DNA of 64,000 nucleotides from Elusimicrobiota bacterium (GTDB lineage Bacteria; Elusimicrobiota; Elusimicrobia; UBA1565): NCBI GenBank assembly GCA_016196755.1, contig JACPXC010000048.1, positions 62,001 to 126,000 of the forward strand, given 5' to 3'. The notes under the pieces are model-generated. The model saw nothing but the letters and a program-made list of their open reading frames with translations, did not search any database and was not told the origin of the DNA. Within the stretch, counting starts at the first letter, position 1. Each line of letters starts with the position of its first letter. Below, in pieces: positions 4,414-64,000 of the stretch. The position numbers were made by a program, and so were the translations under genes.

Positions 4414-4452
4414 ACGCCGTTTTTTTGTTAGGATAGCGCGCGCTTTAAACTG

Positions 4453-5856
4453 ATGGCCGAAGAAGAAAAGAAGACTCCCGAACCCGCCGCCGCGGCGCCG
4501 GCGCCCGCCCCGGCCCCCGCGCCGGCGGCCGCCGCCGCTCCCGCCCCTGCGGCGGCCGCCAAGCCCGCGGCCCCGGCCAAGCCCGCCCCCAAGCCCCTTC
4601 CGACCCCCGTCTACAACACCGCCGACGGCGCGCTTCTCATGGAGGACCGCCTCTGGCCCAGCGACGTCTGGAAGAACCCCTGGGACCGGCCGAGCTACCG
4701 CATGGGCTTCGTGAAGCTCGGCGTCCTGCTAGCCATCCTGCTCGGCGCCGCGCTCGCCGCCGGCGAGGTCGGCGTCTGGCTGGCTCCGAAGGCCAAGACC
4801 TTGCTGTCCGCCCTGCTGGCTGGGGCGGAAAGCCGGGGCGTCCCGGTCCCCGCGATCACGTTCGACGTGCTCTGGACGCTGGTCAAGGTCATCCTCGTCC
4901 TGCACGTGCCCCTGCTCTCGGCCCTGGTATTTGTCTGGTGGGAGCGCAAGATCTCCGCGCACATGCAGTCGCGCCTCGGCCCCATGTACGTCGGCGGCTT
5001 CCACGGCTGGGCCCAGACCATCGCCGACGGCATCAAGCTCCTCCTCAAGGAGAACATCACCCCGGACGCGGCCGACCCCTGGGTGCACCGCCTGGCCCCC
5101 GCCGTGGTCGTGGCTCCGGCCATCCTGGCCTTCGCCCCGGTCTGCTTCGGCAAGGAGCTGACGGTGGCCAACATCGACGTCGGCCTGGTCTACGTGTTCG
5201 CGATGTCGGGGGTGTCGGTCGTCGGCATCATGATGGCCGGCTGGGGCTCGGGCAACAAGTACTCCCTGCTCGGCGGCCTGCGCTCGGCGGCCCAGCTCGT
5301 CAGCTACGAGCTGCCGCGCATGTTCTCCATCGTCCCGGTCGTCATGTTCGCGGGCAGCCTCAACCTCACCGCCATCGCCGACGCCCAGGCCGGCTACTGG
5401 ATGAACACGGTGCCGCGCTGGTTCATCTTCTACCCCGTGGTCGGCCAGATCTCATTTCTCGTGTTCCTCATCGCCTCGGTGGCCGAGACCAACCGCATCC
5501 CCTTCGACATCCCCGAGGCCGAGTCCGAGCTCGTGGCGGGCTTCCACACCGAGTACTCGGGCATGAAGTTCTCGCTGTTCTTCCTGGCCGAGTACGCCTA
5601 CATGACCCTGGCCTGCTGCCTGAGCGCGGCGTTCTTCTTCGGCGGCGGCGGCGCGCCGGCCGCCTTCCTGGAGGGGACCCTGCCGAGCTGGGCTTGGTTC
5701 CTCGGCAAGGTCCTCGCCCTGGTGTTCGTCTTCCTGTGGTTCCGGTGGACCTTCCCGCGCTTTCGCGTCGACCGGCTCATGGACTTCAACTGGAAGTTCC
5801 TGCTGCCGTGGTCGTTTGCCAACATCGCTCTCGCGGGCCTCTACGTGATGTTTTGA
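4453..5856 (+). CDS. nuoH: NADH-quinone oxidoreductase subunit H with Ala/Pro-rich N-terminal extension
   Basis: NuoH is the membrane subunit that links the quinone chamber to the proton channels. Canonical motifs include WWERKISAHMQSRLGPMYVG, GIKLLLKENITPDAAD, ETNRIPFDIPEAESELVAGFHTEYSG (its acidic residues line the E-channel) and the closing FRWTFPRFRVDRLM. The 467 residues are longer than usual because the first ~52 are almost only Ala, Pro and Lys after MAEEEKK, which is not part of the family fold. The 39-nt gap after nuoD contains a run of seven T and no clear hairpin, so an internal start of transcription is possible. Confidence 0.95.
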   Translation: MAEEEKKTPEPAAAAPAPAPAPAPAAAAAPAPAAAAKPAAPAKPAPKPLPTPVYNTADGALLMEDRLWPSDVWKNPWDRPSYRMGFVKLGVLLAILLGAALAAGEVGVWLAPKAKTLLSALLAGAESRGVPVPAITFDVLWTLVKVILVLHVPLLSALVFVWWERKISAHMQSRLGPMYVGGFHGWAQTIADGIKLLLKENITPDAADPWVHRLAPAVVVAPAILAFAPVCFGKELTVANIDVGLVYVFAMSGVSVVGIMMAGWGSGNKYSLLGGLRSAAQLVSYELPRMFSIVPVVMFAGSLNLTAIADAQAGYWMNTVPRWFIFYPVVGQISFLVFLIASVAETNRIPFDIPEAESELVAGFHTEYSGMKFSLFFLAEYAYMTLACCLSAAFFFGGGGAPAAFLEGTLPSWAWFLGKVLALVFVFLWFRWTFPRFRVDRLMDFNWKFLLPWSFANIALAGLYVMF

Positions 5857-42381: not shown

Positions 42382-42406
42382 CCCTGGACCGCCCTTAGGT
42401 CCGGGG
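42382..42406. terminator. Hairpin at a convergent gene junction
   Basis: ccctggacc/ggtccgggg forms a 9-bp stem with one G-T pair and a 7-nt loop between the plus-strand glycosidase-like gene and the minus-strand glycosyltransferase. No T-run is present, so it is only a candidate bidirectional terminator. Confidence 0.35.
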
Positions 42407-43621
42407 AGGACCGTACAACGCCGTATAGACATCCTCGGCAAGGTTCATACTCCGCATCTCAGTGGCGATCCCGCGGATAGTCTCAGACAGCTCTTGGCGC
42501 GGCCGGCCCTGCAGCAGTCCGTCTATCTCACGGACTGCGGCGCGGTAGGCCTCCTGGTCCAGGCCGGTCAGAACCGCTCCGATGCGCCGTTCGGCGATAA
42601 GCTCCGAATCCGAAGCTATGTTAGGGGTGATGATGACCGGCAGACCCATCGCCCAGTACTCCCCGTTCTTTATGGGCGCGCAAAGGCGCTTCAATGGAAC
42701 GGGCTTCACGGGAGTGATGGCGAAGTCGGCCATGGCCATGTATCCAGGGATATCCTTATGATCGACGAACCGAACCAGGAGCTCGCTCTTGTCTAGTCTA
42801 GCCTGATCGCAGAATCGATAGATGATGTCTGGCTCGTCGCTCGTAAGGAAGAGGGCACGAAACCGTCCCGGCCAATATTCGCTGGCGGCCTTGAGGAGAT
42901 CAAAGATCTCACGGTCCAGATAGGTGCCGCCCGTCTTCCCGGCGTAGATGGCGACGATCTTGCCGTCCAACCCGAGCTCGCGGCGGAGCCGATCCGAGTC
43001 GAAACGGTCCGGCCTGAAAGCCTCCAGGTCCACGCAGGCCGGTTTGACATGGAACCCCCGCAACGCCACTCCGTAACGCGACAGCGCGTAGTCGCGCATC
43101 CCGGGAGCCGTGGCGATGACAGCCGCCGCCCGGCGGGTCTGCAGGCGCTCCAAGGCGAAGAGCAGCCGGAACGCCAGTCCTTCTCGTTTCCAGACCCCAT
43201 ATTCCAGCATTCCCTCGGCATGAGGCTCATAGCTGTCTAAGATGAGCCGCTTGCCCGTGGCCAGAGAGAGCAGACTTCCAAGCGCCCCGGCAGGGGTGCA
43301 GAAGCAGTGGATGGCGTCCACGCCCTTGTAGAGACTCAGCCACCATAGACGGATCAGCGTGACGGCCATCTTGAAGATGGCACCGGCGCCGAACCGCGCA
43401 TAGTGGAACGGGACCCATTCGATCCCGTCCTTCGCCAGTTCCGCTCTTACTTCGGCGCGCGAGTCCTTCGGCACCAACAGCCCGTCTTGCTCCAAGGTGA
43501 CGAAGAAGACCTTGCCGCCGCTGCTCAGCCGACGGGCGATCATCCTGACGTAAGGCAGCGTATAGGCTTGGATCAAGCCGCTGCGAAAGGACCAATAGGT
43601 CAGGACGAGGACGTTTTTCAT
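42395..43621 (-). CDS. Glycosyltransferase, GT-B fold (GT4-like)
   Basis: The 408-residue protein starts MKNVLVLTYWSFRSGLIQAY. The second half has IVAIYAGKTGGTYLDREIFDLLKAA, the donor-binding region VKPVPLKRLCAPIKNGEYWAMGLPVIITPN and the regulatory helix segment IGAVLTGLDQEAYRAAV. This is the layout of GT4-family glycosyltransferases. Sugar specificity is unknown. It lies 18 nt downstream of the reductase gene and probably shares its promoter. Confidence 0.85.
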   Translation of the reverse strand: MKNVLVLTYWSFRSGLIQAYTLPYVRMIARRLSSGGKVFFVTLEQDGLLVPKDSRAEVRAELAKDGIEWVPFHYARFGAGAIFKMAVTLIRLWWLSLYKGVDAIHCFCTPAGALGSLLSLATGKRLILDSYEPHAEGMLEYGVWKREGLAFRLLFALERLQTRRAAAVIATAPGMRDYALSRYGVALRGFHVKPACVDLEAFRPDRFDSDRLRRELGLDGKIVAIYAGKTGGTYLDREIFDLLKAASEYWPGRFRALFLTSDEPDIIYRFCDQARLDKSELLVRFVDHKDIPGYMAMADFAITPVKPVPLKRLCAPIKNGEYWAMGLPVIITPNIASDSELIAERRIGAVLTGLDQEAYRAAVREIDGLLQGRPRQELSETIRGIATEMRSMNLAEDVYTALYGPPRT

Positions 43622-43639
43622 GCTCGGTCCTCGAGGAGC

Positions 43640-44554
43640 TCAGGCCGTCTCGAGGACCATCCGATAAGTCTCGGCGTAGTCCTTCAAGCACTCGCGCCAA
43701 TCCCGCATGACGTTAAGCCCGCGTTGATTCAGCTTCATGTTCACCAGCGACTCGCTGGCCGGGCGTTGGGCGAAGTATTCCCGCTGGAAGCGTTCCGACG
43801 ACACCCGCTCCACGGAAACCGTCCTCTCCAAGCCGAGGAGACGGACGAACTCCACGGCGACATCGTAGCGGCTGCCGGAGCCTCCGCAGACTTGATTATA
43901 GAGTCCGTACTGCCCGCTCTCCAGCAGCCGGCGGATGCCGCGGGCAAAGTCGACGGTATAGGTGGGCGTCCCGAGCTTGTCGTCGACGACCTCGAGCGTC
44001 TTCCGCCCGGCCGCGATCTGCTTGAAGATCTTGTTGACGAATTTCTTGTCCTTGGCCGGGCCCCCGCCCATCATCCAGCCGGCGCGGAAGACGTAATGCT
44101 TCGAGACTGAGCGCAGGGCATATTGCTCGCCATAATACTTCGACTTGGCATAGATCGACAATGGGTTCGGGGCGTCGAAGTCATTGTAGAATTCCTTCTC
44201 GCCCCCGAAGATCCCCGCGGTAGAGATGTACACGTAGGGTATGCCCAGGCCCTGGGCGATGGAGCCCAGATTCTCCGCCCCAAAAGCGTTGGTCAGCCAG
44301 GCATCCTCCTGTTCGCGCTCGCAATGTTCCAGGTCGGTATGCGCCGCCAGGTTGATGATGGCGTCCGGCTTGAAGGCCTCGATCGACTCCCGCATGCCGC
44401 GGGGGTCGCGTACGTCTCCCCTAGAAAGCCACGGTTCACAGAGGTTGATGTCCGTGGCTTTCACATGCGCGTCCGAGAACTCCTTGTATACGGCGTCGCC
44501 CAGCATCCCGCCGCAGCCTGCGATGTAGATCCTGCTCGAAGGTGTTATGACCAT
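43640..44554 (-). CDS. RmlD-like NAD-dependent sugar reductase/epimerase
   Basis: A 304-residue SDR. The Rossmann motif is IAGCGGMLGDAVYKEF (residues ~12-27), then INLAAHTDLEHCE, ISTAGIFGGEKEFY and the catalytic YAKSK. This is the order of dTDP-4-dehydrorhamnose reductase (RmlD) and related enzymes. The rest of an rml pathway is not visible in the window, so the substrate may be a GDP- or dTDP-keto sugar. A TAGAAT -10 lies upstream (minus strand, about 44566-44571), with GAGGA before the ATG. Confidence 0.8.
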   Translation of the reverse strand: MVITPSSRIYIAGCGGMLGDAVYKEFSDAHVKATDINLCEPWLSRGDVRDPRGMRESIEAFKPDAIINLAAHTDLEHCEREQEDAWLTNAFGAENLGSIAQGLGIPYVYISTAGIFGGEKEFYNDFDAPNPLSIYAKSKYYGEQYALRSVSKHYVFRAGWMMGGGPAKDKKFVNKIFKQIAAGRKTLEVVDDKLGTPTYTVDFARGIRRLLESGQYGLYNQVCGGSGSRYDVAVEFVRLLGLERTVSVERVSSERFQREYFAQRPASESLVNMKLNQRGLNVMRDWRECLKDYAETYRMVLETA

Positions 44555-44599
44555 CTGTTCCTCACAGCAACGATTCTACTCAAACCGGGACTCCCGCGC

Positions 44600-45688
44600 T
44601 CATTTCCGGAACAGCGCGGCGTAATTCTCGCGCTGGGAATCGACCGAATACCGCGCCTGTATGCGTTCGCGCGCACGCCCTCCCATCGCCGCCAAAGAAT
44701 CGCGATCGTCGATAAGCCCTCGCAACGCCCTGACCCATGCTTGGGCCTCGTTGTCGACTACCAGGCCCGTGACCCCGTCCTCGACTACCTCGCCGCCGGA
44801 GCCCGTGCTGGAAACGACGGGGACGATCCCCATCGCGGAGTATTGGATCGCCTTGAAGCCGACCTTGCCGGGCGCCCAGTCCTCGCGCGGGACCGGCATA
44901 AGGCCGATGTCGAAGCGGTCCAGGTCGGAGATCTCGGTCTCTAGACGCCAGCGGACGAACCGGTAGCCGGAGAGGTCCGGAAAGCCGGGATCGACGTCGC
45001 AGATGACATGGAACTCGAACTCCCTCTGCCGCCGGAGCTCGTAGAGGGCCTCGCGCACGACCTCCAGATACCGGGTCGAGGAGTGACTCCCGGTCCAGCC
45101 CAGGACGAGCGGCCTCGCCCCAGGCCGCGCGGTCCGCGACGATCGGTGATAGGAGGTGTCCACCGTCGTGGGGATCAGACGGACGTCCCGACAGTACGCC
45201 GAGGCCCACCGGACGAGGTACGGGTTGCAGACCGAGACCCTGTGGCTCCAGCGGCAGATCGCGGCCACTTTCCAGAAACATTTAAGAGGACTGATGAATC
45301 GGTTGGCGCTCGACACGTTCGGCAGGTAGATCGCGTCATCAAAGTCGTAGACGATGCGCCGCCCCGAGGCCTTGAGGGCCCACTCCACGAACGGCGGCCC
45401 CAGCGGAGAGGCCTCGCGCGCCACGAAGAACCAGTCGTAGCGGCCGGCCCGGAGAAGGAGGAGCAGCCTTCTGAGGAAGCCCATGAGGAGCCCGGCGGCC
45501 TTCGCCGGCAGGTTCCCGGGCCGATAGAGGACGCGCATCGCGAACTCGGGCATGAAGGGGTGAAGGTCCACCTCGAAGCCGGCGTCCGCGAGGTGACCGA
45601 GGTACTGCTCGTACCGGAACCTCTGCGCCGGGCTCATGCCGCGCGGGGCGGGGCAGAGCACGGCGATGCGGCCCGCGACCCGCCTCAT
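44600..45688 (-). CDS. Glycosyltransferase, GT4-like
   Basis: The 362-residue protein begins GRIAVLCPAPRGMSPAQRFRYEQYL. It contains VYDFDDAIYLPN in the acceptor domain, VLGWTGSHSSTRYL and the donor-site segment PVPREDWAPGKVGFKAIQYSAMGIVPVVSS, followed by GEVVEDGVTGLVV. These are standard GT4 features. It overlaps the upstream methyltransferase by 4 nt, so the two are coupled. Confidence 0.87.
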   Translation of the reverse strand: MRRVAGRIAVLCPAPRGMSPAQRFRYEQYLGHLADAGFEVDLHPFMPEFAMRVLYRPGNLPAKAAGLLMGFLRRLLLLLRAGRYDWFFVAREASPLGPPFVEWALKASGRRIVYDFDDAIYLPNVSSANRFISPLKCFWKVAAICRWSHRVSVCNPYLVRWASAYCRDVRLIPTTVDTSYHRSSRTARPGARPLVLGWTGSHSSTRYLEVVREALYELRRQREFEFHVICDVDPGFPDLSGYRFVRWRLETEISDLDRFDIGLMPVPREDWAPGKVGFKAIQYSAMGIVPVVSSTGSGGEVVEDGVTGLVVDNEAQAWVRALRGLIDDRDSLAAMGGRARERIQARYSVDSQRENYAALFRK

Positions 45689-46596
45689 CGAAGGGGCCGC
45701 GCCAGCGCCGCCAGGAGCTCGCGGTTGGGGAGCAGATCGAGGAGGGCCGCCGCGGCGCCGCGCATGACGGCTGCGAGGCCGCGCCCGCCCCGGTAGCCGC
45801 GTCCCTTGCCGGAGTATGTGACGAGTTCGACCGGCTCAAGACCCGCCGCGCGAAGGGCATGGAGCAGGGAAGCGACGGTGAAGCCGAACCGGTGGAACGG
45901 CGGATGGAGGGGGGAGAGACGGGATGACCAGTCCAGCCCTCTGAGTCGGAAATAGGCGTCTGCGGCCCGCAGAAGGTAGGAATCGCAGTTGGGCACCTCG
46001 ACGAAGAGGAGCCCGTCCGGCTTGAGCAGGCCGCGCGCTCCGCGCAGCAGCTCGAGCGGGCGCTCGACGTGCTCCAGGACATGATTCAAGGTCACGGCGT
46101 CGAACGCCGCCGCCTCCGCGCCGGCCGTCTCCAAGGTCCCCAGGCGGACGTCCAGCCCGTAAGCCGCGCGCGCGTGCTCGCAGAGGCCTTGGGAAGGTTC
46201 TATCCCCGCTACAGCCCAGCCGCGCGTCCGGGCAACGCTAAGGAACTCGCCTTTGCCGCAACCGACGTCGAGCAGGCGACCGGGAGCGCGATGGCGAGTT
46301 ATGAGGTCTAGACGGGATGCGAACATCGCCTCCCCGCGCCCCTCCGCGGCGGCCTGGTAGCCTAGCGGGTCGGCGTAATGCGCCGCCTCTAGATGTTCCA
46401 TGCCCCGGATCATCGGGTTCGTGTAGATGAAGTCGCACCCCAAACACCGCACCACGTCGGTTTGGATGTGCGGCTCCGCGCGAGAGTCCGCGCCGAAATG
46501 CTCCCGGTTGCCGCGGACTCCCATCCGACGGAAACGCCCGGAGCCGCAGAGCGGGCAATGAACGGGTTCGAGCCGCCAGGCCACGCGGCCAGTCAT
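45685..46596 (-). CDS. Class I SAM methyltransferase with N-terminal zinc-ribbon-like motif
   Basis: The 303-residue protein has two Cys pairs near the N-terminus (CPLCGSGRF and CLGCDF), suggesting a zinc ribbon, then the SAM loop LLDVGCGKGEFLSVAR and the later motif FDAVTLNHVLEHVERPLELL. This architecture is common for methyltransferases in surface-sugar loci. The target is probably a sugar or small metabolite. It is coupled to the GT4 gene downstream. Confidence 0.85.
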   Translation of the reverse strand: MTGRVAWRLEPVHCPLCGSGRFRRMGVRGNREHFGADSRAEPHIQTDVVRCLGCDFIYTNPMIRGMEHLEAAHYADPLGYQAAAEGRGEAMFASRLDLITRHRAPGRLLDVGCGKGEFLSVARTRGWAVAGIEPSQGLCEHARAAYGLDVRLGTLETAGAEAAAFDAVTLNHVLEHVERPLELLRGARGLLKPDGLLFVEVPNCDSYLLRAADAYFRLRGLDWSSRLSPLHPPFHRFGFTVASLLHALRAAGLEPVELVTYSGKGRGYRGGRGLAAVMRGAAAALLDLLPNRELLAALARPLR

Positions 46597-46702
46597 CGAC
46601 GAGACAGGAGCCGCCGGCCCAGGAATGTTAGACTATGGTTCTGCATGCCGCGACGCTGAGCAATGGTATGAAAAATCGGGCTTCCTCCGCGCCCCGCCAC
46701 CC

Positions 46703-47602
46703 GTGAGCGCTCCCCTGGTCAGCGTCGTGATCCCAGCCTTCAACGCAGAACGCTGGGTCCCCGCAGCGCTCGAGAGCGTGCTGGCCCAAGACTACGCCCC
46801 CCTCGAGGTCATTGTGGTCGACGACGGCTCCAAGGACGGAACAGGGGCCGCCGTGGCGCGCTTCGGAGACCGGGTCCGCTACGTCCGCCAGGCCAACTCG
46901 GGGGTTTGCCAAGCGCGGAACCGTGGCGCCCGCGAGGCGCGCGGGAAGCTGGTGGCGTTCTTGGATGCCGACGACGTCTGGCTACCCGGAAAGCTCAAGG
47001 CCCAGGCCGCCCGCTTCGCCGCCCGCCCAGGGTTGGCGACCTGCTTCACGGGGACGGTGGCCTTTGACGAAGCGACGGGCCGGGAGACCCTGCTGGCCTA
47101 TAGGCTCAGCCCCGATCTCGTCGCTGACCTCCTGCTTCATTGCACGATCATCGGGAACTCGTCCACCGTGATGGTCCGGCGCGAGGTCTTCGAGCGGGTA
47201 GGCGGCTTCGACCCGGCCCTCAGTAACTGCGCCGACTGGGACATGTGGATCCGCCTTGCCGGCGCCGGCCCGGTAGACCTCGTCCCGGAGCCCTATGTAC
47301 GCTACCGACTCCACCACGGGAGCATGAGCACGAGCGTGCGACTCCTTGAGAAGGACACCTTGACCCTCCTCGAGAAGTTCTTCTCCGATCCCGCGAACGC
47401 CGTCCGCTACGCCGGCATCCGGCGCGACGTCTTCGCGAACCAGTTTCTCGTGCTCTCCGGGTCCCACCTCCACGCCGGCAACGTCGCGGCCAGCCTCCGG
47501 TTCCTCGCGCTCGCCTGCCGGGCGCGACCCTCGGCCGCCCTGACGGCCCTCGGCCTGCCGTGGCGAACGGCTCGGCGCCTCCTTAGCGGGCAACTGCTAT
47601 AA
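46703..47602 (+). CDS. Glycosyltransferase family 2
   Basis: A GT-A fold enzyme: VVIPAFNAERWVPAALESVLAQDYAPLEVIVVDDGSKDGT, then the DxD region FLDADDVWLPGKL and the catalytic block FDPALSNCADWDMWIRLA. I place the start at GTG 46703 (MSAPLVSVVIPAFN) because the family begins there. An upstream in-frame ATG at 46625 would add 26 residues of non-family sequence, and a -10-like TAGACT sits between the two. The specificity is unknown. Confidence 0.86.
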   Translation: MSAPLVSVVIPAFNAERWVPAALESVLAQDYAPLEVIVVDDGSKDGTGAAVARFGDRVRYVRQANSGVCQARNRGAREARGKLVAFLDADDVWLPGKLKAQAARFAARPGLATCFTGTVAFDEATGRETLLAYRLSPDLVADLLLHCTIIGNSSTVMVRREVFERVGGFDPALSNCADWDMWIRLAGAGPVDLVPEPYVRYRLHHGSMSTSVRLLEKDTLTLLEKFFSDPANAVRYAGIRRDVFANQFLVLSGSHLHAGNVAASLRFLALACRARPSAALTALGLPWRTARRLLSGQLL

Positions 47603-50532: not shown

Positions 50533-51837
50533 TTATACAATATCCTTGGAGCAAAACCGTCGTGTTTCCGCGATGGCTCCGGCGCCAGCCGCCGCCAGGA
50601 TGAACAGCATCGGCGTCATCGGCAGCCAGAAACGGTACTCAGTGAAGCCGGCGACGAAGAATGCTGCCATAAACGCGCATTGGACCGCGCAGACGGCCGC
50701 CGCTGCCTCGCGTCGGCGGGCCCAGGCGCCCCATATCCCTAGGAAAAGGGGGGCTATCGAGAAGACAGAGGCCGCGGCCGCTTTGCTTAGGATCTTCAGC
50801 AGGTCCTCCCTCCACGAGAGAGCCGCAAACGAGCTCGAGCCGTGGTCGAAGCTCGAGATTAGGAGGAACCGCAGCGCGTAGACGCGCGAGAGAAGCCAGC
50901 GGAAAGGGGCGGCCTTGATATTGCGGGCGGTCTCGGCCGAAAGCTGCTTGTCTGACTCGACGATCTCCGAAATCGGGCAATCCCCCGTAAGAAGGCAGTA
51001 GCCTGCCCGGTCGGCGAGCATCTTAGGGTAGAACGCGGAGTCATTGCTCTGGTCCCAATCGAGTCTCGAGCCGATATAGGTGAGCATCGAGCTCCCAGAC
51101 ATCAAGGGCACGAACCGTCCAGCAAGGAGGCTGCAGCGGATTATCCACGGGCCGCTCAGGAGCAGAGAGAAGCCCGCCGCGACGGCGGCGCGGGAAAGCG
51201 TCCGGCGCGACGGCTGAAGGAGCACAAGCGGCGCGAAGACCACGAACGGCAGGACGAATGCGATCGCGCGGACGGTCGAGGCCGCCCCGAGAAGCAAGCC
51301 GCCGGCGGCCGCGAAACGCAAGTCGTCCCGGCGTCTAGCCGCGACCAGCACCCAAGTCGCTGCTGTAAGCAGGAAGGTGAAGAGGGACTCGCTCAAGAGC
51401 GTGTGCGAATAGCGAATGGCCTCAGGATGGAACGCGTAGAGGGCCGCTGCAGCCGCTGCGAAGCCCGGGCGGAGCAACTCGCGGGCCAGCGCGAAGACGA
51501 TACCGATGAGAGCGGCATCGAGCAGTATCTGGGCCAGCACGATCCCGCGCGCCGGGTCAGGGTGGCCCAGGAAGGCCGCGATGAAGGCCGGGTAGCCGGG
51601 GACCCGCCGGACCGTAGGCCGATACGGCGGCGCCGTGTCGAGGCTTAGGACCCCGTTGGCCCGAAGGTTGCCGGCCAAGGTGAAGTAGCCGCCTGTGTCC
51701 GGCGCTCTTATGACGCCGTACTCGCGGAAAGCTTGGAGCCTCAGGAACAGGCCGGCCAAGACCAAGGCCAGGGCGTAAGCCCCCTCCCGGGCGTAGGTTT
51801 TTGACGGTGCGCTCAAAACGCGGCTGGTTGGATCCAT
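50533..51837 (-). CDS. GT39-like/ArnT-like membrane glycosyltransferase
   Basis: The 434-residue protein has about ten membrane helices. The first periplasmic loop carries [19 protein letters not shown] (PMT_2-type acidic motif), a second reads [15 protein letters not shown], and [20 protein letters not shown] follows. This is the layout of dolichyl/undecaprenyl-phosphate-sugar glycosyltransferases (ArnT, PMT). It would transfer a sugar from a polyprenyl phosphate outside the membrane. Confidence 0.75.
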
Positions 51838-51898
51838 TCAGGCCGCCGGGCTGCGTCCGCGCCCGGGAGGTCAAGGATACCAAATCGTCTATTTTTTA

Positions 51899-51904
51899 TA
51901 TCAT
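51899..51904 (+). promoter_or_regulatory. TATCAT -10-like box 7 nt before gmd
   Basis: TATCAT in a local AT-rich patch ends 7 nt before the ATG at 51912. There is no Shine-Dalgarno sequence in between. Supports a leaderless gmd message. Confidence 0.45.
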
Positions 51905-51911
51905 CGCCGTC

Positions 51912-52967
51912 ATGAGCTCCGCAACGCCCCGCAAGGCCTTCATCACAGGAATCACCGGACAGGACGGCTCGTATCTCGCGGAGCTCCTCCTTGGGAAAGG
52001 CTACGAGGTCCACGGCCTCGTGCGTCGGACCAGCATGTTCAACACCGGCAGGATCATCCATCTTTTCCAGGACCCCCATGAGAAGGAGGTCCGACTGCAC
52101 CTGCACTACGGCGACATGCTCGACGCTGCCGGCCTTTCGGGTCTGATCAACAAGATCCGGCCCGACGAGGTCTACCACCTAGCGGCCCAATCCCATGTCC
52201 GCGTCTCCTTCGAGATCCCGAGCTACACCTGCGAGGTCGTCGGCATGGGGACGGCCAGCCTTCTCGAGGCCATCCATCAATCGGGCCTCCAGGCACGCTA
52301 CTACCAGGCCTCCTCCAGCGAGATGTACGGGGCGGTGGCCGAAGTCCCCCAGACGGAACGGACGCCGTTTCGCCCCAGGTCCCCGTACGCCGCCGCGAAA
52401 CTGATGAGCTATTGGCTGGTCAACACCTACAGGGAAGCCTACGGCCTCTATGCGGTCAACGGCATCCTGTTCAACCACGAGTCTCCCCGCCGTGGCGAGA
52501 CCTTCGTCACGCGCAAGATTACTAGGGCTTTCGCCAATATCCTGGCAGGACGCCAGGAGAAGGTCTACCTGGGGAACCTTGAGGCGAAGCGGGATTGGGG
52601 CTACGCCGCCGAATACGTCGAAGGGATGTGGCGAATGCTCCAGCAGGAAAAGCCCGATGACTACGTCCTGGCCACCGGGGAGACCCATACTGTCCGCGAG
52701 TTCTTGGATGAATGCTGCAGGCTCGTGGATCTCGACCCCGAGAAGGTGGTCGCCATCGACCCCCGCTATTTCCGCGCCGCCGAAGTCGATCTCCTGCTGG
52801 GGGACCCCTCGAAAGCGAAGCGGGAGCTCGGGTGGGAGCCCAAGACAAGCTTCTCGGCCTTGGTGAGGCTCATGCTCGCCGCCGACATCGCGGCCGTCGG
52901 ACTCGACCCCCGCCGGTACGGCCTGGAACCCTCGCCGGACAAAGCCGTCGTGCTCGGAGCCGTGTGA
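51912..52967 (+). CDS. gmd: GDP-mannose 4,6-dehydratase
   Basis: Gmd converts GDP-mannose to GDP-4-keto-6-deoxymannose. It shows [58 protein letters not shown] and the catalytic [23 protein letters not shown] is diagnostic. The 351 residues are normal. Its stop overlaps the next start (TGATG), so the pair is coupled and makes GDP-fucose or a related 6-deoxysugar. Confidence 0.95.
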
Positions 52968-53974
52968 TGAGCGCGTTCTGGGCGGGCCGCCGGGTCCTAG
53001 TGACCGGAGGGAACGGCTTCATCGGCAGTCATCTGCTCGATGCTCTCGCTGCAGCGGGCGCGAATCTGACCGCGACCGCGTCGTCTCCGGCCACCAAAGA
53101 CCGCTTCCTCAGCCCGGGAAGCTCAGCCGCGCGCTGGATTCTCGGTGACCTCCGCGACTCCGCGACCGCCCGCGAAGTCGTCCGCGGCCAACACTTGGTG
53201 ATGCACCTGGCAGCGAAAGTCGGCGGGATCGCTTACAACGTGGCCCATCCCGCAAGCATCTTCCGTGACAACCTGCAGTCGTTCATATCCGTGCTCGAGG
53301 CCGCCCGCCATGAACGGGTCGGCCGGTTTCTCGTCACAAGTTCCGCCTGCGTCTACCCGCGCGACTGCACCATCCCGACGCCCGAATCAGAAGGCTTCGT
53401 CGGCCTGCCCGAGCCGACCAACGAAGGATACGGGTGGGCGAAACGCATGGAGGAGTTCCTCGGAGAGGCAAGCGCCAAGGAGCATGGGATGGACGTCCGC
53501 ATCGCCCGCCCGTATAACGCCTATGGCCCGCGCGACAACTTCGATCCCGCGACCAGCCATGTCGTCGCCGGTTTGATCCACAAGGTGCTGACCGCCGACG
53601 GGATCGTGGATGTGTGGGGAGACGGCAGGACGACGCGGAGCTTCCTGTACGCTACCGATTTTGCGCGCGGCCTCATGGCGGTGGCGGAACGGTCTCCTCA
53701 GGTGGGAGCGATCAATATCGGGGCTCGGGAAGAGATATCGATCCGCGATCTCGCGGAGATGATTGTCCGGCTGTCGGGGCGGCGGATAGAATTGCGGTTC
53801 GACGCATCCAAGCCTTCCGGGCAGCCCCGCCGTTCCTGCGACACCCGCCTCGCGGAATCCTTGATAGGCTTTAGAGCCGAGGTGCCTCTCGAGGAAGGGC
53901 TTCGGCATACGATGGAATGGTATCGTCTCGCCCTTGGACCCGTCGCCACCGAAGGCAAAGGCGCGGGGAAATGA
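52967..53974 (+). CDS. GDP-L-fucose synthase-like SDR (WcaG family)
   Basis: A 335-residue extended SDR. It has VLVTGGNGFIGSHLLD, VMHLAAKVGGIAYN, TSSACVYPRDC and catalytic Y-x-x-x-K in YGWAKRMEEFLG. The segment DNFDPATSHVVAGLIHKVL resembles GDP-fucose synthase. It is the natural second step after Gmd; a 4-keto-reductase giving GDP-rhamnose or GDP-fucose, or a UDP-sugar epimerase, cannot be told apart by sequence alone. It overlaps gmd by one base. Confidence 0.82.
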   Translation: MSAFWAGRRVLVTGGNGFIGSHLLDALAAAGANLTATASSPATKDRFLSPGSSAARWILGDLRDSATAREVVRGQHLVMHLAAKVGGIAYNVAHPASIFRDNLQSFISVLEAARHERVGRFLVTSSACVYPRDCTIPTPESEGFVGLPEPTNEGYGWAKRMEEFLGEASAKEHGMDVRIARPYNAYGPRDNFDPATSHVVAGLIHKVLTADGIVDVWGDGRTTRSFLYATDFARGLMAVAERSPQVGAINIGAREEISIRDLAEMIVRLSGRRIELRFDASKPSGQPRRSCDTRLAESLIGFRAEVPLEEGLRHTMEWYRLALGPVATEGKGAGK

Positions 53975-56587: not shown

Positions 56588-57577
56588 CTAAACGGACAAG
56601 TCCTTCCAATACCCGTCATACTCTGCGCAAGCCTGCTCCAGGACCGGCCTATATCTAGGCGATATCAGCCCCGCAATAGCCTCCAAATGCTTCATCCGCT
56701 GACCGGCAGGAAGCGCGCCGGGAAGCCGCTGCTGGGTCATGATGACCGACAAGGCCGGTCCCGGCTTGCGTCCCAGAAAGCCGGCCATCGTCGCCAGAAC
56801 CGCATCCGGTTTCTCCACGAGCGTATCGTAGCGGACAAAGCAGACTCGGCCGGACGCCGCGCCGCCGGCAGCCTCGAACCCCCGGCGGGCTTCGTTCTGC
56901 AAGGCGGCGATGCTCAGGACGCATCGTTCCATCTCGGAGAGCTGGGCGTAGTCTTCCTGCCAGTCCAACGCCCACCACGGCCGGGGCTCCCCGGGAGCGG
57001 TGAAAAACAAGGAGAACACTTGACCGTCGTTAGCTCCGGAGCGCCTGCCCCAGCCGCGCTTGAACCAAGACATCGCCAAGGCGGCCGGGTCTCGCAGGAT
57101 GCTGACCAAGCGAACCTTTGGGAAGAGTTCAAAAATAACCGGGGCACTCGGAAGACCCTCATGGCAAATGTGCAGAGGCAACCGGCGCTCCTCCTTGAAG
57201 CGCCGGACCAATTCCTCCCGATCCTCGACCGCAGCCCTGGCTAAGAAGCTCGCCGCATCAGGCGCTCTATTTATGCATGAAAGGTCAACCTGCCTGCCAT
57301 TGAGCGAGCGTCCGATGGCCATGTTAAAGGCCATCGAATCCATCTCGAGATGGCTCAATGCGCGGAGCGTGTCGAGGTCCATCTTCCCAAGACGGTGCAG
57401 GATGAGCATGGTTTCGAAGGCAAGCGAGTATTGGATGAACTCAAGACCCTCGAATGCCGATATGACGGACCCAAGAAGGAACTTGCCGGCCCGGGTGATT
57501 CCGTCGACCATGACGAAGTCTTCGAAGAACCGGTACCGCGGGGCACAGGAAGCACGGAGGCTGGCTGGGTCGCTCAT
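56588..57577 (-). CDS. PAPS-dependent sulfotransferase
   Basis: The 329-residue protein starts at ATG 57577 (MSDPASLRASCAPRY); an in-frame extension to 57685 would overlap cysC and is not family-like. The PAPS 5'-phosphosulfate loop is VDGITRAGKFLLGSVISAF and the 3'-phosphate region is LVSILRDPAALAMSWFKRGW. RRFKEERRLPLHICHEG precedes it. It lies directly downstream of cysC, so it probably uses the PAPS made there to sulfate a glycan. Overall family similarity is moderate. Confidence 0.78.
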   Translation of the reverse strand: MSDPASLRASCAPRYRFFEDFVMVDGITRAGKFLLGSVISAFEGLEFIQYSLAFETMLILHRLGKMDLDTLRALSHLEMDSMAFNMAIGRSLNGRQVDLSCINRAPDAASFLARAAVEDREELVRRFKEERRLPLHICHEGLPSAPVIFELFPKVRLVSILRDPAALAMSWFKRGWGRRSGANDGQVFSLFFTAPGEPRPWWALDWQEDYAQLSEMERCVLSIAALQNEARRGFEAAGGAASGRVCFVRYDTLVEKPDAVLATMAGFLGRKPGPALSVIMTQQRLPGALPAGQRMKHLEAIAGLISPRYRPVLEQACAEYDGYWKDLSV

Positions 57578-57623
57578 ATTCTGGAGTACGCGGGCCGAAA
57601 TTGCCGAGACATAGCCCGGATCG

Positions 57624-58157
57624 TCATGCCTTCTCGGTACGCTTCTCGACGAACTCCAGCACCTTGGCGGCGCTCGCGGAGACATCCTCGCCAGCGGTGT
57701 CCAGAGTAAGGTTCGGGCTCGACGGCGCCTCGTAGGGCGTTTCCAGCGAAAGGCCGATGAAATTCTCCACCTGTCCGGCCAGCGCCTTCTTATAGAGGCC
57801 TTTCACATCGCGCCGGATGCATTCCTCTATGCTCGCCTTCACATATAGTTCCGCGAAGTGCGGCTCCAAGAGACGCCGGGCGTACTCGCGCCCCCGGCGA
57901 AAGGGCGAGATCACGGGCACCAGAACGTAGTCATACTTCCCGAGCGCTTCGCTGCACAAAGCGGCTAAACGCCGATTATTCTCGAGGATGTCGTCAGACG
58001 AGAACTTGAGGTCTCTGTGCAGAGTGCCGCGAACGGCGTCTCCGTCGAGTATAAGTACGCTCTTGCCGCGCTCGGTCAAGCCCCGCGCCACCGCCTGCGC
58101 GATGGTGCTCTTGCCGCTGCCGGATAGCCCGGTGAACCAGAGCACCAAGGTCCTCAT
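57624..58157 (-). CDS. cysC: Adenylylsulfate (APS) kinase
   Basis: CysC turns APS plus ATP into PAPS plus ADP. P-loop GLSGSGKST (residues 10-18), DGDAVRG (38-44), then LKFSSDDILENNRR, matching the DxxFSxxxRxENxRR block with a changed R. ISPFRRGREYARRLL and LDTAGEDVSASAAKVLEFV complete the fold. It is 177 residues and starts 4 nt inside the end of the ATP-sulfurylase fusion (ATGA). Confidence 0.92.
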   Translation of the reverse strand: MRTLVLWFTGLSGSGKSTIAQAVARGLTERGKSVLILDGDAVRGTLHRDLKFSSDDILENNRRLAALCSEALGKYDYVLVPVISPFRRGREYARRLLEPHFAELYVKASIEECIRRDVKGLYKKALAGQVENFIGLSLETPYEAPSSPNLTLDTAGEDVSASAAKVLEFVEKRTEKA

Positions 58158-60364
58158 CCGACGAACACTTCCTTCCCTTCGGCCAGACGCTCGAGAATCA
58201 GGTTGGAGATCGTGGGGCGCATGAACCAGTCCGGGGGCGGCGTCTTTCCGAGGAGGAACTGGCGCGCCTGTGTGCCGCTGATGTCCTCGAGCGCGTGGGC
58301 GTCGCCCACCTCGCTCCGGGACGCGTGCCGCCCAAGCGCGGGGGAATACCCGATCTCGGAATAGAATACTGGCACGATGCCGATATCCGGAAAACGACTG
58401 AAGATGACCTTCGAGTCGTCGGGGCCGTAGAAAGAGCCGACCCCGGTATGGTCGCGGCCGACGATGAAGTGGCTGCAACCGAAGTTCTGACGACAGAGGG
58501 CGGTGAAGACGGCCTCGCGAGGGCCGGCGTAGCGCGACCAGGTCGAGAACCCCGCAAACACGACGCGGTTGCTGGGGTAATGCTTCTCCATCATGAGCTC
58601 ATATGCCGCGATGATGGTATCCGCCGTGTAGTCGCCCGTCTTCTTCTTGCCGACGATGGGGTGCACGAACAGGCCATCCGCGCCGTACTGCTCCATCGCG
58701 CGCAGTTGGATGAACTCGTGGGACCGGTGAATGACGTTCCGCGTATGGAAGCCCACGATCTTCGACCAGCCACGGCTCTCGAATATGCTGCGCACTTGGC
58801 GGGGGGTGAGGTTGACGTAGGAGTGCGGCAAGAGCCTCCTACGCAGGAGCCGCACCTTGCCCCCCAAGAGAAACTCGCCGTAGGCCTTGAGGTGCTCCAC
58901 GCCCGGATGGCTATCGTTGGTGGTGGCGAAGACCTCGCGGGAGTACGCATCCTTCTCGAATGGATAGATGTCCTCGAGGTCGAGCACGCCGTAGGTCTCG
59001 CCGTCGGAGCGCGACACAAGAGCGACCTGCGAGCCGATCTTGAGCCGAGCACTATCTAAGGCGGAGACCGGGAGGATGATCGGGATCGTCCACGGCACGC
59101 CGGTCTTCAGGCGCATCTCCGAGAGCACGCACCGGTAATCCTCGCTCGTCAAGAACCCCTCCAGAGGACTGAAGGAACCCACACCGAGCTGCTCGAGATC
59201 CATCAGCAGCTCGTCGTCGAGGTGTACGCGGGGGAGACCGGAGAAATCCTCTCCGGGCGCCGGCGGCAGGAAACGGTCCACGAGGCGTCCGCCGTGGGGA
59301 GCGACGAGGAGGCCGTTCAAGTCACGGTCCAGCAGTTTCTGCGCGTCGAGCATCGGCGAGGCGGGCTGAGGACCCGCCATAGCGGCTTGCCGCACGAGCG
59401 CGTTCATCATGTTGACCGTCTCGACGGGGTACTTGCCCACCGCGGTCTCCTTGGTCAGCACGAAGCCCGTGACTCCGCTGAGAATGGTGCTCACGATGTC
59501 GTTCGCCTCGGCACGAGAAGGCTTTAGCTCCGAGGCCATGGTCTCCATGAGGTTGGAAGCAACGAATACCTCCTTGCCCGCTTCGCAGGCCCGCTGAATC
59601 AAATGCCGCTGGATGAGGGGGATGCGCTCGATGGGGACCTCGCGGCTCAGGTCGCCGCGGTCGATGAGGATGCCGTCGGCCTCCTGCAAGATCGCGTCCA
59701 CGTCCCGTAGGCCGCTCAAGGTTTCAATCTTGGCATACGTCACCGCCTCTGGATAGAGACGCTTGAATTCCTGGACCTGCTGCGCGCTATCCATGAACGA
59801 GAGCGTGAAATGCTTGATGCCGTGCTTCTTGGCCAGCTTCACTGCGGCGCGGTCCTTTTCGCTGAAAGGGGGCATGACGCGCCCGGGAAGGTCGCAATGC
59901 ACGCCCTTGCGGCTGCCGACGGAGCCCTCGATGATGACACGGCAGGAGATGAAGCCGGCGGAGCGGCATTGAGAGATGTCCTCGACCCGTAGGAGCACGG
60001 AATTGAAGTCCAGCGCTATAAGATCGCCCGGCCGGAAGAACTGGATGATGTCCGTTGGCGTGAAATAGAGGTCGTAGGCTCCGCAACGCATCTCTCGACC
60101 ATGGATGCGGACTAGCTCATTATTGAGAAACTGCACTGCGCCGCCACCCGGCATCATGCCTGTCCGGATTTGGCTCCCCTCCGTATCAATCGCGATGGGG
60201 ATGCCGCATCCTTTTAGCGCCTGGATGTAGCGCTCGATCTCCTCCAGAGGAACGTGCGAGAGGTTGATTCGAACCAAAAAGACGCCTCGCGCCGCGAAGC
60301 CGCGCAGAACCGCCTCTTGGAGCGAGGTCGGCCCCACCGTACATATGACCTTGATCGGTCGCAT
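58154..60364 (-). CDS. Pyruvate-kinase-like domain fused to ATP sulfurylase
   Basis: One 736-residue polypeptide. Residues 1-330 are pyruvate-kinase-like: VICTVGPT, RINLSH (32-37), DTEGSQIRTG (60-69), AKIE (K212, E214), DRGDLSREVP (D238), and KETAVGKYP at 305-313. The classic ATQMLESM is VASNLMETM, so the catalytic Thr appears as Ser270. The pyruvate-kinase C domain is absent. From about 345 an ATP sulfurylase follows: VGSFSPLEGFL, VNLTPRQVRSIFESRGWSKI, HTRNVIHRSHE (540-550; usual QTRNPxHxxH, so Gln is His and Pro is Val) and VGRDHTGVG (635-643). It would make APS for the overlapping cysC. A native kinase-sulfurylase fusion is unusual. Confidence 0.88.
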   Translation of the reverse strand: MRPIKVICTVGPTSLQEAVLRGFAARGVFLVRINLSHVPLEEIERYIQALKGCGIPIAIDTEGSQIRTGMMPGGGAVQFLNNELVRIHGREMRCGAYDLYFTPTDIIQFFRPGDLIALDFNSVLLRVEDISQCRSAGFISCRVIIEGSVGSRKGVHCDLPGRVMPPFSEKDRAAVKLAKKHGIKHFTLSFMDSAQQVQEFKRLYPEAVTYAKIETLSGLRDVDAILQEADGILIDRGDLSREVPIERIPLIQRHLIQRACEAGKEVFVASNLMETMASELKPSRAEANDIVSTILSGVTGFVLTKETAVGKYPVETVNMMNALVRQAAMAGPQPASPMLDAQKLLDRDLNGLLVAPHGGRLVDRFLPPAPGEDFSGLPRVHLDDELLMDLEQLGVGSFSPLEGFLTSEDYRCVLSEMRLKTGVPWTIPIILPVSALDSARLKIGSQVALVSRSDGETYGVLDLEDIYPFEKDAYSREVFATTNDSHPGVEHLKAYGEFLLGGKVRLLRRRLLPHSYVNLTPRQVRSIFESRGWSKIVGFHTRNVIHRSHEFIQLRAMEQYGADGLFVHPIVGKKKTGDYTADTIIAAYELMMEKHYPSNRVVFAGFSTWSRYAGPREAVFTALCRQNFGCSHFIVGRDHTGVGSFYGPDDSKVIFSRFPDIGIVPVFYSEIGYSPALGRHASRSEVGDAHALEDISGTQARQFLLGKTPPPDWFMRPTISNLILERLAEGKEVFVG

Positions 60365-61210: not shown

Positions 61211-62422
61211 TCAAATCGCCGTGTAATCTTGCTTATTGTCTTCGATCCACGTGGTGATATCCTCCGGAGAAAAAGCGAGGCAGGTATAGTGGTCGATTAG
61301 ATCCTGTTCCGGACAATAGCTTGTCGTGCCATAGATGCGTTTGAGCGCCCTCATAGCCGACGATCCAAAAGAACCGCAGGACCGGATGAGAAAGGGAGCC
61401 AAGGTGATTTCGATGGGAAACTCGCTATGCTCACGGACGGCGATCAAGGCCGTGTTTGGCGACGCATGCCCGATGCGTTCCAACACGCTTGATACCTGGG
61501 CCTCGCTATTTCGCGGATGCGGTTTGATCAATAGGGATGAGGCTCCCTCGCGCTGGACCATCGCGTAGGCCAGCTTGACGATTGATCGAGTTAGCCGCTC
61601 GCTGTGGGGCTCGAGGTCGGGGTCATATGGCGCCAGCAAGAGAAGGGGAGTGTTCTCACCGCATCGCCGTGCCAGCTGCTCAAAATAGTCTCGAACCGCT
61701 TCGGGCAGGTCGGCGAAGAACCTGAGCATCGTGTCTCGGCCTATATGCGGGCGCAAGTCGTGCTGCACACGAGCCCAGGGCATCGGGAGGTTGAAAGAAT
61801 AGGCCTCGTCAACGGACATCCGCCTCGGCAAGACGGCGTCATCACCGAATAGCCCCGCCTTTAGGCGCTCAACGCTGGAGCGGCCCCCGCTTCGTAGAAA
61901 ATCGGAACAATGGCGGGAATAGAAGGTGAGTTCCGTGAGGCTCAACGAATCGAATCCATGAGGTGTATATATCTTTCGCGCCGAAGGAAAAATCCCATAG
62001 AGCGCTTGAACATCGGCATGATGGAAACAGGTCAGGTAGAGTTCGTCCACCTTCTTGGCTAGCAGGGCCCTTAAAGAAGGGTGCTCGGGCGGCAGGCCGA
62101 AGGCGGGGGCCAGCATCCGACGCAACCCGGAGACAGAGGCGGTGATGTCTCTCAGGCGTCGGAGCCTAGACCTGGGAGGCGCCCCGGATTTGATGTGCGG
62201 GGCGAGCGGCAGGCCTGAGATGTCGACCACCTCACTCCAGGCATGGGAGCGAGCCATGATGCGCATCTTATTCGCCAACGACTGCGTCGCCTCCGCCGAC
62301 TTGTCCATTGAAAACGCCAGCACATCCCTACCCGCGGGCAAGTTCCGTAACACGACGGCGGCGCTGGCGATATCATGGAGGGTATCCGCACGAAACAACC
62401 GGGTAGGGACCGCGGAATTCAT
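61211..62422 (-). CDS. Polysialyltransferase-like glycosyltransferase (tentative)
   Basis: A 403-residue soluble protein. It has the pattern of GT-B CMP-sugar transferases: YTPHGFDSL at about 156, then LLLLAPYDPDLEPHSE, and SLLIKPHPRN near residue ~298 with the HP motif, then FLIRSCGSFGSSAM with a Ser-rich donor loop. This resembles bacterial polysialyltransferase or related capsule enzymes. Support is moderate and only by pattern. It lies 1 nt after the neighbouring ABC exporter gene, suggesting co-transcription and a role in capsule assembly. Confidence 0.55.
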   Translation of the reverse strand: MNSAVPTRLFRADTLHDIASAAVVLRNLPAGRDVLAFSMDKSAEATQSLANKMRIMARSHAWSEVVDISGLPLAPHIKSGAPPRSRLRRLRDITASVSGLRRMLAPAFGLPPEHPSLRALLAKKVDELYLTCFHHADVQALYGIFPSARKIYTPHGFDSLSLTELTFYSRHCSDFLRSGGRSSVERLKAGLFGDDAVLPRRMSVDEAYSFNLPMPWARVQHDLRPHIGRDTMLRFFADLPEAVRDYFEQLARRCGENTPLLLLAPYDPDLEPHSERLTRSIVKLAYAMVQREGASSLLIKPHPRNSEAQVSSVLERIGHASPNTALIAVREHSEFPIEITLAPFLIRSCGSFGSSAMRALKRIYGTTSYCPEQDLIDHYTCLAFSPEDITTWIEDNKQDYTAI

Positions 62423-62423
62423 G

Positions 62424-64000
62424 TCAAAAGAACTTCTGAGCTTCCCAGTATTGATGGAAACGTCCCCTCATTTCGAGCAGCTTGGACAGTGAGCCTTCCT
62501 CAACGATCTCGCCGCCCTCCACCACCAGGATCTTATGGGCCTTTCTTATCGTCGATAGACGGTGGGCGATAACCACGGCGGTCTTACCCCCGATCATCTC
62601 GTCGAGCGCCTCTTGGATCAATTGCTCGGTCTTCGTGTCCAGAGCGCTGGTCGCCTCATCGAGGATAAGGACATCGCTCCCTTTGAGAAGCGCCCGAGCG
62701 ATCGAAACCCGCTGCTTCTCGCCTCCGGATAGTTGGACGCCCCGGTCCCCTATGACCGTTTCAAAGCCATCCGGAAGCCGCGACACGAAATCGGTCAATC
62801 GAGCCTTGCGGACGGCGGTGTCCAAGGCCTCGTCCGTCGGGACGGGACGCAGGCCATAAGTGATGTTCACCCTCAATGAATCGTTGAATAGGCTCGTGTC
62901 TTGGCTCACCAGCGCCATATGGCGGCGCAATGACTTGAGAGTGAACGAACGGATATCGCGCCCATCGATCATGATGCAGCCAGGAGCGCTGTCATAGAAT
63001 CGGCTCAACAAGCTGGCGATCGTCGACTTCCCCGTGCCGCTTGGGCCGACGATAGCCGTCATCTGGCCGCGTTCCACGGAAAAGCTCACCCGTTTCAGAA
63101 TCCGAGGCCCGTCAGCGTAAGAGAAATCGACGGCTTTGAATTCGATGAGCGACTTGAGTCCCGGGAACTCCTCTTGGCCGGAGGGGACGAAATGCTTGCC
63201 GGAGTCATCGAAGATCCCATCGAGCTCATCGAGCGGCCCGGTGATGGCTGAGAGCGTCGCCTTTATATGGCTGACGACGCTAAACGAGCTGGCGGCTCTT
63301 CGCAGCACGTAGAAATAGACCAGAAATCCAGGCAAACGCGCCGTCCCTTGTCGCGCGACGATGAACGCCATCACTGAGACAAGGAGGAGGACGAGTCCAA
63401 GCATGATTACTTCTTGGAGCGGCAGGACTATCAGGACGTTTCGGTCCATCCCGAATTCGAAGCGCGCGACTTCGTCGCTCTTGCGGCCGAAGATTTCGCT
63501 CTCCTGCTCCTCCCCACAGTAGGCTTTTATTAGTGGGATGCAGGAGAGCGCGTTGAACAACGCCTTGCTCATAGCCCCCTGGGCTTCAGAGAAAGAAGCG
63601 GATGCCCTACGGACCCTTGGAATGATCCAGGCCAGGGAAAGATTCAGCACGGGCAGAAGGAAAATGAGCGCCGCCGTCAGCTTTACCGAGATATACATCA
63701 TGATCCCCAGATAGGCGATCAGCGTGAATGCGCCGGCGAAAAAATAGTGGAGGTCCGAGAGCCGCGTTACCAACTTTTCGACCGTACTGATCACTACGCC
63801 ATGGAGATGGCCCGCATTGTTCTTATCGAAAAAAATCTTCCCAAAGGTCAGATAGCGCCGGAATATCAGCTTTCGCAACCCATTGGCGAACTGCCTGACC
63901 AAGCGTGCCACAGCGACCGAAGAACCGTACTGCAGGATGTTCTTGAGGACGAACGACAGGAATATGGCAAGTGCCAAGCAGACGAATGCGGCAGAAGGCG
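62424..64000 (-). CDS. MsbA-like ABC exporter (cut by right edge)
   Basis: The frame stays open to the right edge, so the N-terminal transmembrane part is incomplete. Visible parts include several transmembrane helices, then the nucleotide-binding domain with Walker A VGPSGTGKSTIAS, Q-loop VSQDTSLFN, signature LSGGEKQRVSIARALL, Walker B VLILDEATSALD and the H-loop VIAHRLST. This is the fused half-transporter layout of lipid A or polysaccharide exporters. Its place at the end of a glycan locus fits export or flipping of a lipid-linked sugar. Confidence 0.93.
   Translation of the reverse strand, partial: PSAAFVCLALAIFLSFVLKNILQYGSSVAVARLVRQFANGLRKLIFRRYLTFGKIFFDKNNAGHLHGVVISTVEKLVTRLSDLHYFFAGAFTLIAYLGIMMYISVKLTAALIFLLPVLNLSLAWIIPRVRRASASFSEAQGAMSKALFNALSCIPLIKAYCGEEQESEIFGRKSDEVARFEFGMDRNVLIVLPLQEVIMLGLVLLLVSVMAFIVARQGTARLPGFLVYFYVLRRAASSFSVVSHIKATLSAITGPLDELDGIFDDSGKHFVPSGQEEFPGLKSLIEFKAVDFSYADGPRILKRVSFSVERGQMTAIVGPSGTGKSTIASLLSRFYDSAPGCIMIDGRDIRSFTLKSLRRHMALVSQDTSLFNDSLRVNITYGLRPVPTDEALDTAVRKARLTDFVSRLPDGFETVIGDRGVQLSGGEKQRVSIARALLKGSDVLILDEATSALDTKTEQLIQEALDEMIGGKTAVVIAHRLSTIRKAHKILVVEGGEIVEEGSLSKLLEMRGRFHQYWEAQKFF

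Follow-up and report, generated by a model that had tools for sequence, protein, structure and literature searches.

A candidate PEP-driven module for PAPS supply: a pyruvate kinase-ATP sulfurylase fusion encoded in an Elusimicrobiota polysaccharide locus

A gene in which the barrel of pyruvate kinase (PK) is joined to a complete ATP sulfurylase (ATPS) was identified on the minus strand of a 64,000-nucleotide stretch of an Elusimicrobiota genome, referred to here as the window. Its sequence and genomic context make it rather probable that this fusion serves as a PEP-driven module for PAPS synthesis, in which PK would clear the ADP produced by APS kinase and give back ATP, with the PAPS being destined for sulfation. 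The gene and its parts are as follows.

58154 to 60364, minus strand: PK-ATPS fusion gene, 736 amino acids (open reading frame, Pfam, homologues with the same architecture, structural model)
59375 to 60364, minus strand: PK barrel (A and B domains), residues 1-330, no C domain (full-length PF00224, no PF02887; Foldseek matches to solved PKs)
59309 to 59374, minus strand: interdomain linker, residues ~331-352 (pLDDT below 50 at 343-350; poor conservation in the alignment)
58841 to 59302, minus strand: N-terminal PUA-like domain of ATPS, residues 355-508 (PF14306)
58190 to 58816, minus strand: catalytic domain of ATPS, residues 517-725 (PF01747; best fold match 8a8d)

As the first-pass annotation had proposed, PK and ATPS share a single unbroken frame, which opens with an ATG start codon and runs for 736 codons with no internal stop. 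The PK hallmarks quoted there were all found in the frame (RINLSH, with R32; AKIE, with K212 and E214; RGDL, 236-239; ETA, 306-308). Pfam PF00224 matched residues 2-317 over model positions 2-328 of 328 (1.3e-54) and PF02887, the tetramer-forming and allosteric C domain, gave no match in the fusion protein, confirming a complete barrel from which the C domain is missing. The downstream ATPS is likewise complete, with the PUA-like (PUA_2, 5.7e-43) and catalytic (8.6e-69) domains both above the Pfam cut-offs. No APS kinase domain was detected in the chain by Pfam; CysC is encoded by a separate gene at 57624-58157. Against NCBIfam models, the fusion scored just under the cut-offs of two ATPS families (TIGR00339, 316.3 versus 322.95 bits; NF003166, 382.3 versus 387 bits) and well below that of the PK equivalog TIGR01064 (225.4 versus 306.4 bits), a shortfall for which the missing C domain is partly to blame. 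Sequence matches to solved structures included ATPS 8a8d (1.6e-83) and PK 1pkl (3.3e-45). Structure prediction, which had been recommended as a check, yielded a high-confidence two-domain AlphaFold2 model from a 33-sequence alignment (mean pLDDT 91.2, pTM 0.74), in which only linker residues 343-350 fell below 50. Foldseek matched the ATPS half of this model to 8a8d (TM score 0.91 on the target) and the other half to many PK structures.

A search of other genomes recovered the same two-domain fusion from five other records. Full-length fusions were detected by tblastn against plasmids on megaplasmids of the Rhizobiaceae Sinorhizobium chiapasense and Ensifer adhaerens (39-40% identical to the window protein), and profile searches of the host phylum added one from a different family of the same class (G057) and two from a different class (G339 and G340). 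Overall identity of these homologues to the window protein was 37-42%, and all six fusions have an identical domain order and no internal stops (0/6). At the search threshold, none of the 341 phylum genomes other than those of the window host, G057, G339 and G340 yielded a fusion. Among 57 close relatives of the host no second fusion turned up, a single-protein query of genome contigs returned plain PK only, and phage records contained no full-length match.

The first-pass annotation had named a frameshift or assembly error between the domains as one finding that would overturn its proposal. Frameshift, assembly chimera and chance read-through were all ruled out, and we assign them a negligible probability: the five stop-free homologues come from independent assemblies, the two-domain model is of high confidence, and dN/dS between close fusion pairs is low (PK half, about 0.03 and 0.14; ATPS half, about 0.09 and 0.10), indicating that purifying selection acts on both halves. 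In phylogenetic trees, the PK domains of the fusions formed one clade (SH-aLRT 100), as did their ATPS domains (support 100/99). Since each half forms one clade, the fusion probably arose once, which is also the simplest reading. Neither tree set the fusions of the host phylum apart from those of Rhizobiaceae, with inner branches only moderately supported, and horizontal transfer of the fusion between phyla is therefore likely.

The surroundings of the fusion gene constitute a polysaccharide locus with glycosyltransferases, sugar epimerases, a polysialyltransferase-like protein, an ABC exporter and a Wzz-like protein. The neighbouring features of the window are listed below.

57624 to 58157, minus strand: cysC, APS kinase (PF01583 / TIGR00455; 4-nt overlap with the fusion gene)
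56588 to 57577, minus strand: sulfotransferase-like gene, its start probably internal to the open reading frame 56588-57685 (weak PF00685/PF13469)
42395 to 47602: glycosyltransferases, RmlD-type reductase and methyltransferase of the polysaccharide locus
51801 to 53974, plus strand: GDP-mannose dehydratase-like open reading frame (by sequence) and epimerase gene
61211 to 63998, minus strand: polysialyltransferase-like protein and MsbA/HepA-type ABC exporter

The placement of CysC in the same operon was borne out, as cysC starts inside the fusion stop codon (ATGA, a 4-nt overlap). It is followed by the sulfotransferase-like gene, which has a weak but recognisable Pfam match. In G340 the sulfotransferase, fusion and cysC genes overlap one another; all three are present in G339 as well. 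The G057 fusion gene overlaps one for a sulfotransferase, and the sole CysC of that genome is encoded elsewhere, together on one contig with PF01507 and inositol-monophosphatase family genes. Both Rhizobiaceae fusions have cysC after them and an O-antigen-ligase-like gene nearby, and no sulfotransferase was recognised by Pfam among the genes scanned near them. No plasmid relatives of the window sulfotransferase were found.

Two further observations concern these loci. On the Sinorhizobium and Ensifer megaplasmids (L008 and L009), the fusion-cysC pair lies between the O-antigen-ligase-like gene and genes for a Na/H exchanger, a PqqD-domain protein and a nucleotidyltransferase, and the pair carries no annotation in PLSDB. 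In the window, the polysialyltransferase-like protein (PF07388, 61211-62422) adjoins the MsbA/HepA-type exporter, and NeuB is encoded outside the window at L017:7764-8831; with the PF07388 protein and NeuB, the presence of nonulosonic acid in the same glycan is possible.

The host genome, which is 100% complete by index, contains one ATPS (the fusion), one CysC and a separate PK. No PF01507 protein (CysH/CysD) is present in it, and the host thus lacks both CysD and CysH. Because CysH is absent, PAPS in this organism is not used for classical CysH sulfate reduction, and from gene content sulfation is most likely its remaining use.

Unfused counterparts of the fusion locus were also found. G046, from the same order as the host, has an operon of cysC, sat, a PK without a C domain, a calcineurin-type phosphoesterase and a sulfotransferase-like gene (L054:5323-9835, minus strand), in addition to a separate ordinary PK; the phosphoesterase may stand in for CysQ as a PAP phosphatase. 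G231 has a tightly packed operon of cysC, sat, a full-length PK with its C domain, an inositol-monophosphatase family (CysQ-like) gene and a sulfotransferase-like gene (L098:7770-12710), which looks like a complete set for PAPS supply and PAP removal with its own PK. The window sulfotransferase-like protein is 36% identical to its G046 counterpart and 27% identical to that of G231. On two Komagataeibacter plasmids, a sulfotransferase adjoins a "pyruvate kinase" without a C domain (L096:8567-10409 and L099:805-2644); that of K. xylinus carries Asp292 of the DRGD type and shares 52% identity with the PK of the G231 operon. NeuA-like and NeuC-like genes (by sequence) are found near both unfused operons (L054:13512-15779 and 3532-5130; L098:13599-17551), which suggests sulfated nonulosonic-acid glycans.

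Sat-type ATPS was present in 20 of the 341 phylum genomes. When sulfation-type loci were defined by the presence of cysC or a sulfotransferase gene within 1.5 kb of ATPS, a fused or adjacent PK (within 1.5 kb) was found in 6/7 of these loci in the host phylum, as compared with 0/14 other ATPS loci. The association (Fisher p = 1e-4 for all loci; 4e-4 with genera collapsed) is indicative only, because some flanks end at contig ends and the species are related. Separately, many phylum genomes have a PK frame of just ~340-380 amino acids, apparently lacking the C domain (families f19, f21 and parts of f9).

The roles of the PK active-site residues, given here in rabbit PK numbering, are well established. 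Arg72, Asn74, Ser76, His77, Asp112, Arg119, Lys206, Lys269, Glu271, Arg293, Gly294, Asp295 and Glu363 are kept in all six fusions, and Thr327 is Ser in the window fusion and Thr in the other five. Columns invariant among canonical PKs were retained more often at the active site (13/15, with Asp177 counted) than elsewhere (21/41; p = 0.015, or p = 0.004 with Asp177 left out of the active-site set). Changes common to all fusions were Asp177 to Phe, Ala292 to Asp, Gln328 to Asn, Met329 to Leu and Ser361 to Ala or Thr; the fusion residues at Asp177, Ala292, Gln328 and Ser361 are Phe120, Asp235, Asn271 and Thr or Ala304. Position 292 is Asp in all six fusions and in three unfused sulfation-linked PKs, and Ala in every other aligned PK. 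The G231 and Komagataeibacter PKs have Asp292 and are otherwise near-canonical, with Asp177, Ser361 and Thr327 kept. In rabbit PK, Ile298, Asp177 and Gly178 form the A-B lid contacts (PMC4374775). The corresponding fusion residues are Arg241, Phe120 and Asn121, and the lid is thus remodelled, since all three contacts differ. At the K+-signature positions the fusions have Thr113 and Gln117, a pair outside both the Glu117 and the Lys117 classes; within the K+-independent branch, some PKs of Crenarchaeota also have Gln at position 117 (PMC4374775). Although the PK half is non-canonical, it would still be likely to transfer phosphate from PEP to ADP. The codons of two substituted residues, one in each half, are as follows.

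59660 to 59662, minus strand: codon for Asp235 (rabbit Ala292), marker of sulfation-linked PKs (alignment)
58745 to 58747, minus strand: codon for His540, replacing the sulfate-binding Gln of QxRN (alignment)

The ATPS half departs from its relatives at two positions in all six fusions and in no other ATPS examined: His replaces the Gln of QxRN, and Thr the His of GPREAxxHA. The first of these positions corresponds to Gln199 of A. vinosum ATPS, a ligand of the sulfate oxygens of APS (PMC3779200). The zinc motif of most relatives has been lost. The HxxH, RN, GxxKxxD, GRDH and SGTxxR motifs are kept, except for the Lys of GxxKxxD in E. adhaerens.

In the proposed module, the ATPS half would convert ATP and sulfate to APS and PPi, and CysC from the overlapping gene would convert APS to PAPS, releasing ADP. 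Next to both ATP consumers, and perhaps with CysC in contact and nucleotides channelled, the PK half would convert PEP and ADP to pyruvate and ATP. ADP and APS trap APS kinase in a dead-end complex, and a published in vitro cascade needed added PK and PEP to reach a good PAPS yield (PMC9885120). By keeping ADP scarce and ATP plentiful around CysC, the PK half would relieve this CysC-ADP-APS complex. The adjacent sulfotransferase-like enzyme would then spend PAPS on a surface polysaccharide or lipid-linked glycan, and removal of PPi would be left to a pyrophosphatase. The first-pass description of an ATP-regenerating PAPS factory has gained strong indirect support from the recurrent fusion, the unfused operons, the lack of CysH and CysD in the host and the retention of most PK active-site residues, but both halves proved non-canonical. 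Its further suggestion that PK pushes APS synthesis forward survives in weaker form: removal of the ADP from APS kinase, which would be its main action, would exert an indirect pull, and only an indirect one, because PK leaves PPi in place. Counted against the module are the fusion-wide PK substitutions and altered lid, the His at the sulfate-binding Gln position, the host's other PK, which could supply ATP, and the lack of a Pfam-recognised sulfotransferase among the genes scanned near the Rhizobiaceae fusions.

The same substitutions lend themselves to other explanations. The PK half could be a regulatory or structural module that binds PEP or a nucleotide and tunes the activity or oligomerisation of ATPS without phosphotransfer, as the changes D177F, A292D, Q328N and S361A/T, the altered lid and the absent C domain might indicate. 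There is precedent in the degenerate APS-kinase-like domain of fungal ATPS; Penicillium ATPS has a regulatory nucleotide-binding fourth domain. We regard this as fairly unlikely, given that Lys269, Arg72, the Mg ligands Glu271 and Asp295, the K+-site residues Asn74, Ser76, Asp112 and Thr113, and Lys206 are kept in all six fusions, and that the equivalent G231 operon has a separate full-length PK with a C domain, an arrangement more in keeping with an enzyme than with a fused regulator. Alternatively, the link to sulfation may be real and the reaction something other than ADP recycling, with Asp235 and the remodelled lid as adaptations to another phosphoryl acceptor or enolphosphate. The restriction of Asp292 to the fusions and the three unfused sulfation-linked PKs fits such a reaction, as does the divergence of the fusion PK domains, whose own profile gives them 506-570 bits and no other phylum PK more than 264. 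This too is unlikely, however, as the residues that contact ADP (His77, Arg119 and Lys206) are retained and the Asp292-bearing G231 and Komagataeibacter PKs are near-canonical elsewhere.

Doubt about the ATPS half takes a different form, namely that it handles sulfate poorly and activates another oxyanion or runs in the ATP-forming direction. Consistent with this are the two fusion-specific substitutions, one of them at the residue that holds the sulfate of APS in the A. vinosum enzyme, and the loss of the zinc motif. We nevertheless judge it very unlikely, in view of the CysC and sulfotransferase neighbours, the absence of any other ATPS from the host genome and the retained HxxH, RN, GRDH and SGTxxR motifs. 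The PEP-driven PAPS module, with sulfate as the probable ATPS substrate, is thus the reading we prefer.

Comparison with known systems shows familiar parts in what appears to be a new arrangement. With Sat-type ATPS (PF14306 and PF01747; Methanothermococcus thermolithotrophicus 8a8d, the closest PDB entry to it in both sequence and fold, and Thermus 1v47) it shares the PUA-like and catalytic domains and the HxxH, RN, GRDH and SGTxxR motifs, but it has an N-terminal PK, HxRN for QxRN, Thr in place of His in REAxxHA and no zinc motif. With PK (PF00224 and PF02887) it has in common a whole A/B barrel and the majority of active-site residues; it differs in lacking the C domain, in Ala292 to Asp, Asp177 to Phe, Glu/Lys117 to Gln and Gln328 to Asn, and in being joined to ATPS. 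Bifunctional PAPS synthetases and Aquifex-type ATPS-APS kinases (PAPSS1/2, 2gks) are likewise ATPS-centred fusions for PAPS synthesis, whereas here the fused partner is PK and APS kinase has its own, overlapping gene. CysD/CysN(C) and NodP/NodQ also supply PAPS, including for sulfation, but use another ATPS family (GTP-driven CysN, PF01507 CysD), and the host has no PF01507. When PAPS is made in the laboratory with ATP regenerated by PK, the same set of ATPS, APS kinase, PK and sulfotransferase is used (PMC9885120), as separate enzymes assembled by hand rather than as a natural fusion and operon. No description of a PK-ATPS fusion was found in the open-access literature. Each domain, and fusion of ATPS with APS kinase, is known; what appears to be new is PK in the role of partner.

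More tentatively, the alignments raise the possibility of a class of "sulfation pyruvate kinases" with Asp292 that have entered PAPS supply on more than one occasion, as ATPS fusions, in cysC-sat-pyk-cysQ-sulfotransferase operons and in the Komagataeibacter plasmid pairs. Their sites might be specialised for local transfer from PEP to ADP, with adenine nucleotides handed between PK, ATPS and APS kinase.

If the proposed function is correct, the fusion would be a natural form of the hand-built PK-driven PAPS supply, in which the problem of ADP and the dead-end complex is solved by an attached ATP-regenerating kinase, and it would offer ready-made parts for enzymatic sulfation, as of heparin and chondroitin. 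A "pyruvate kinase" annotation could then mask a non-glycolytic, pathway-dedicated enzyme, perhaps recognisable by a DRGD motif and sulfation neighbours. The fusion loci would also point to sulfated surface glycans in lineages where nobody has looked for them.
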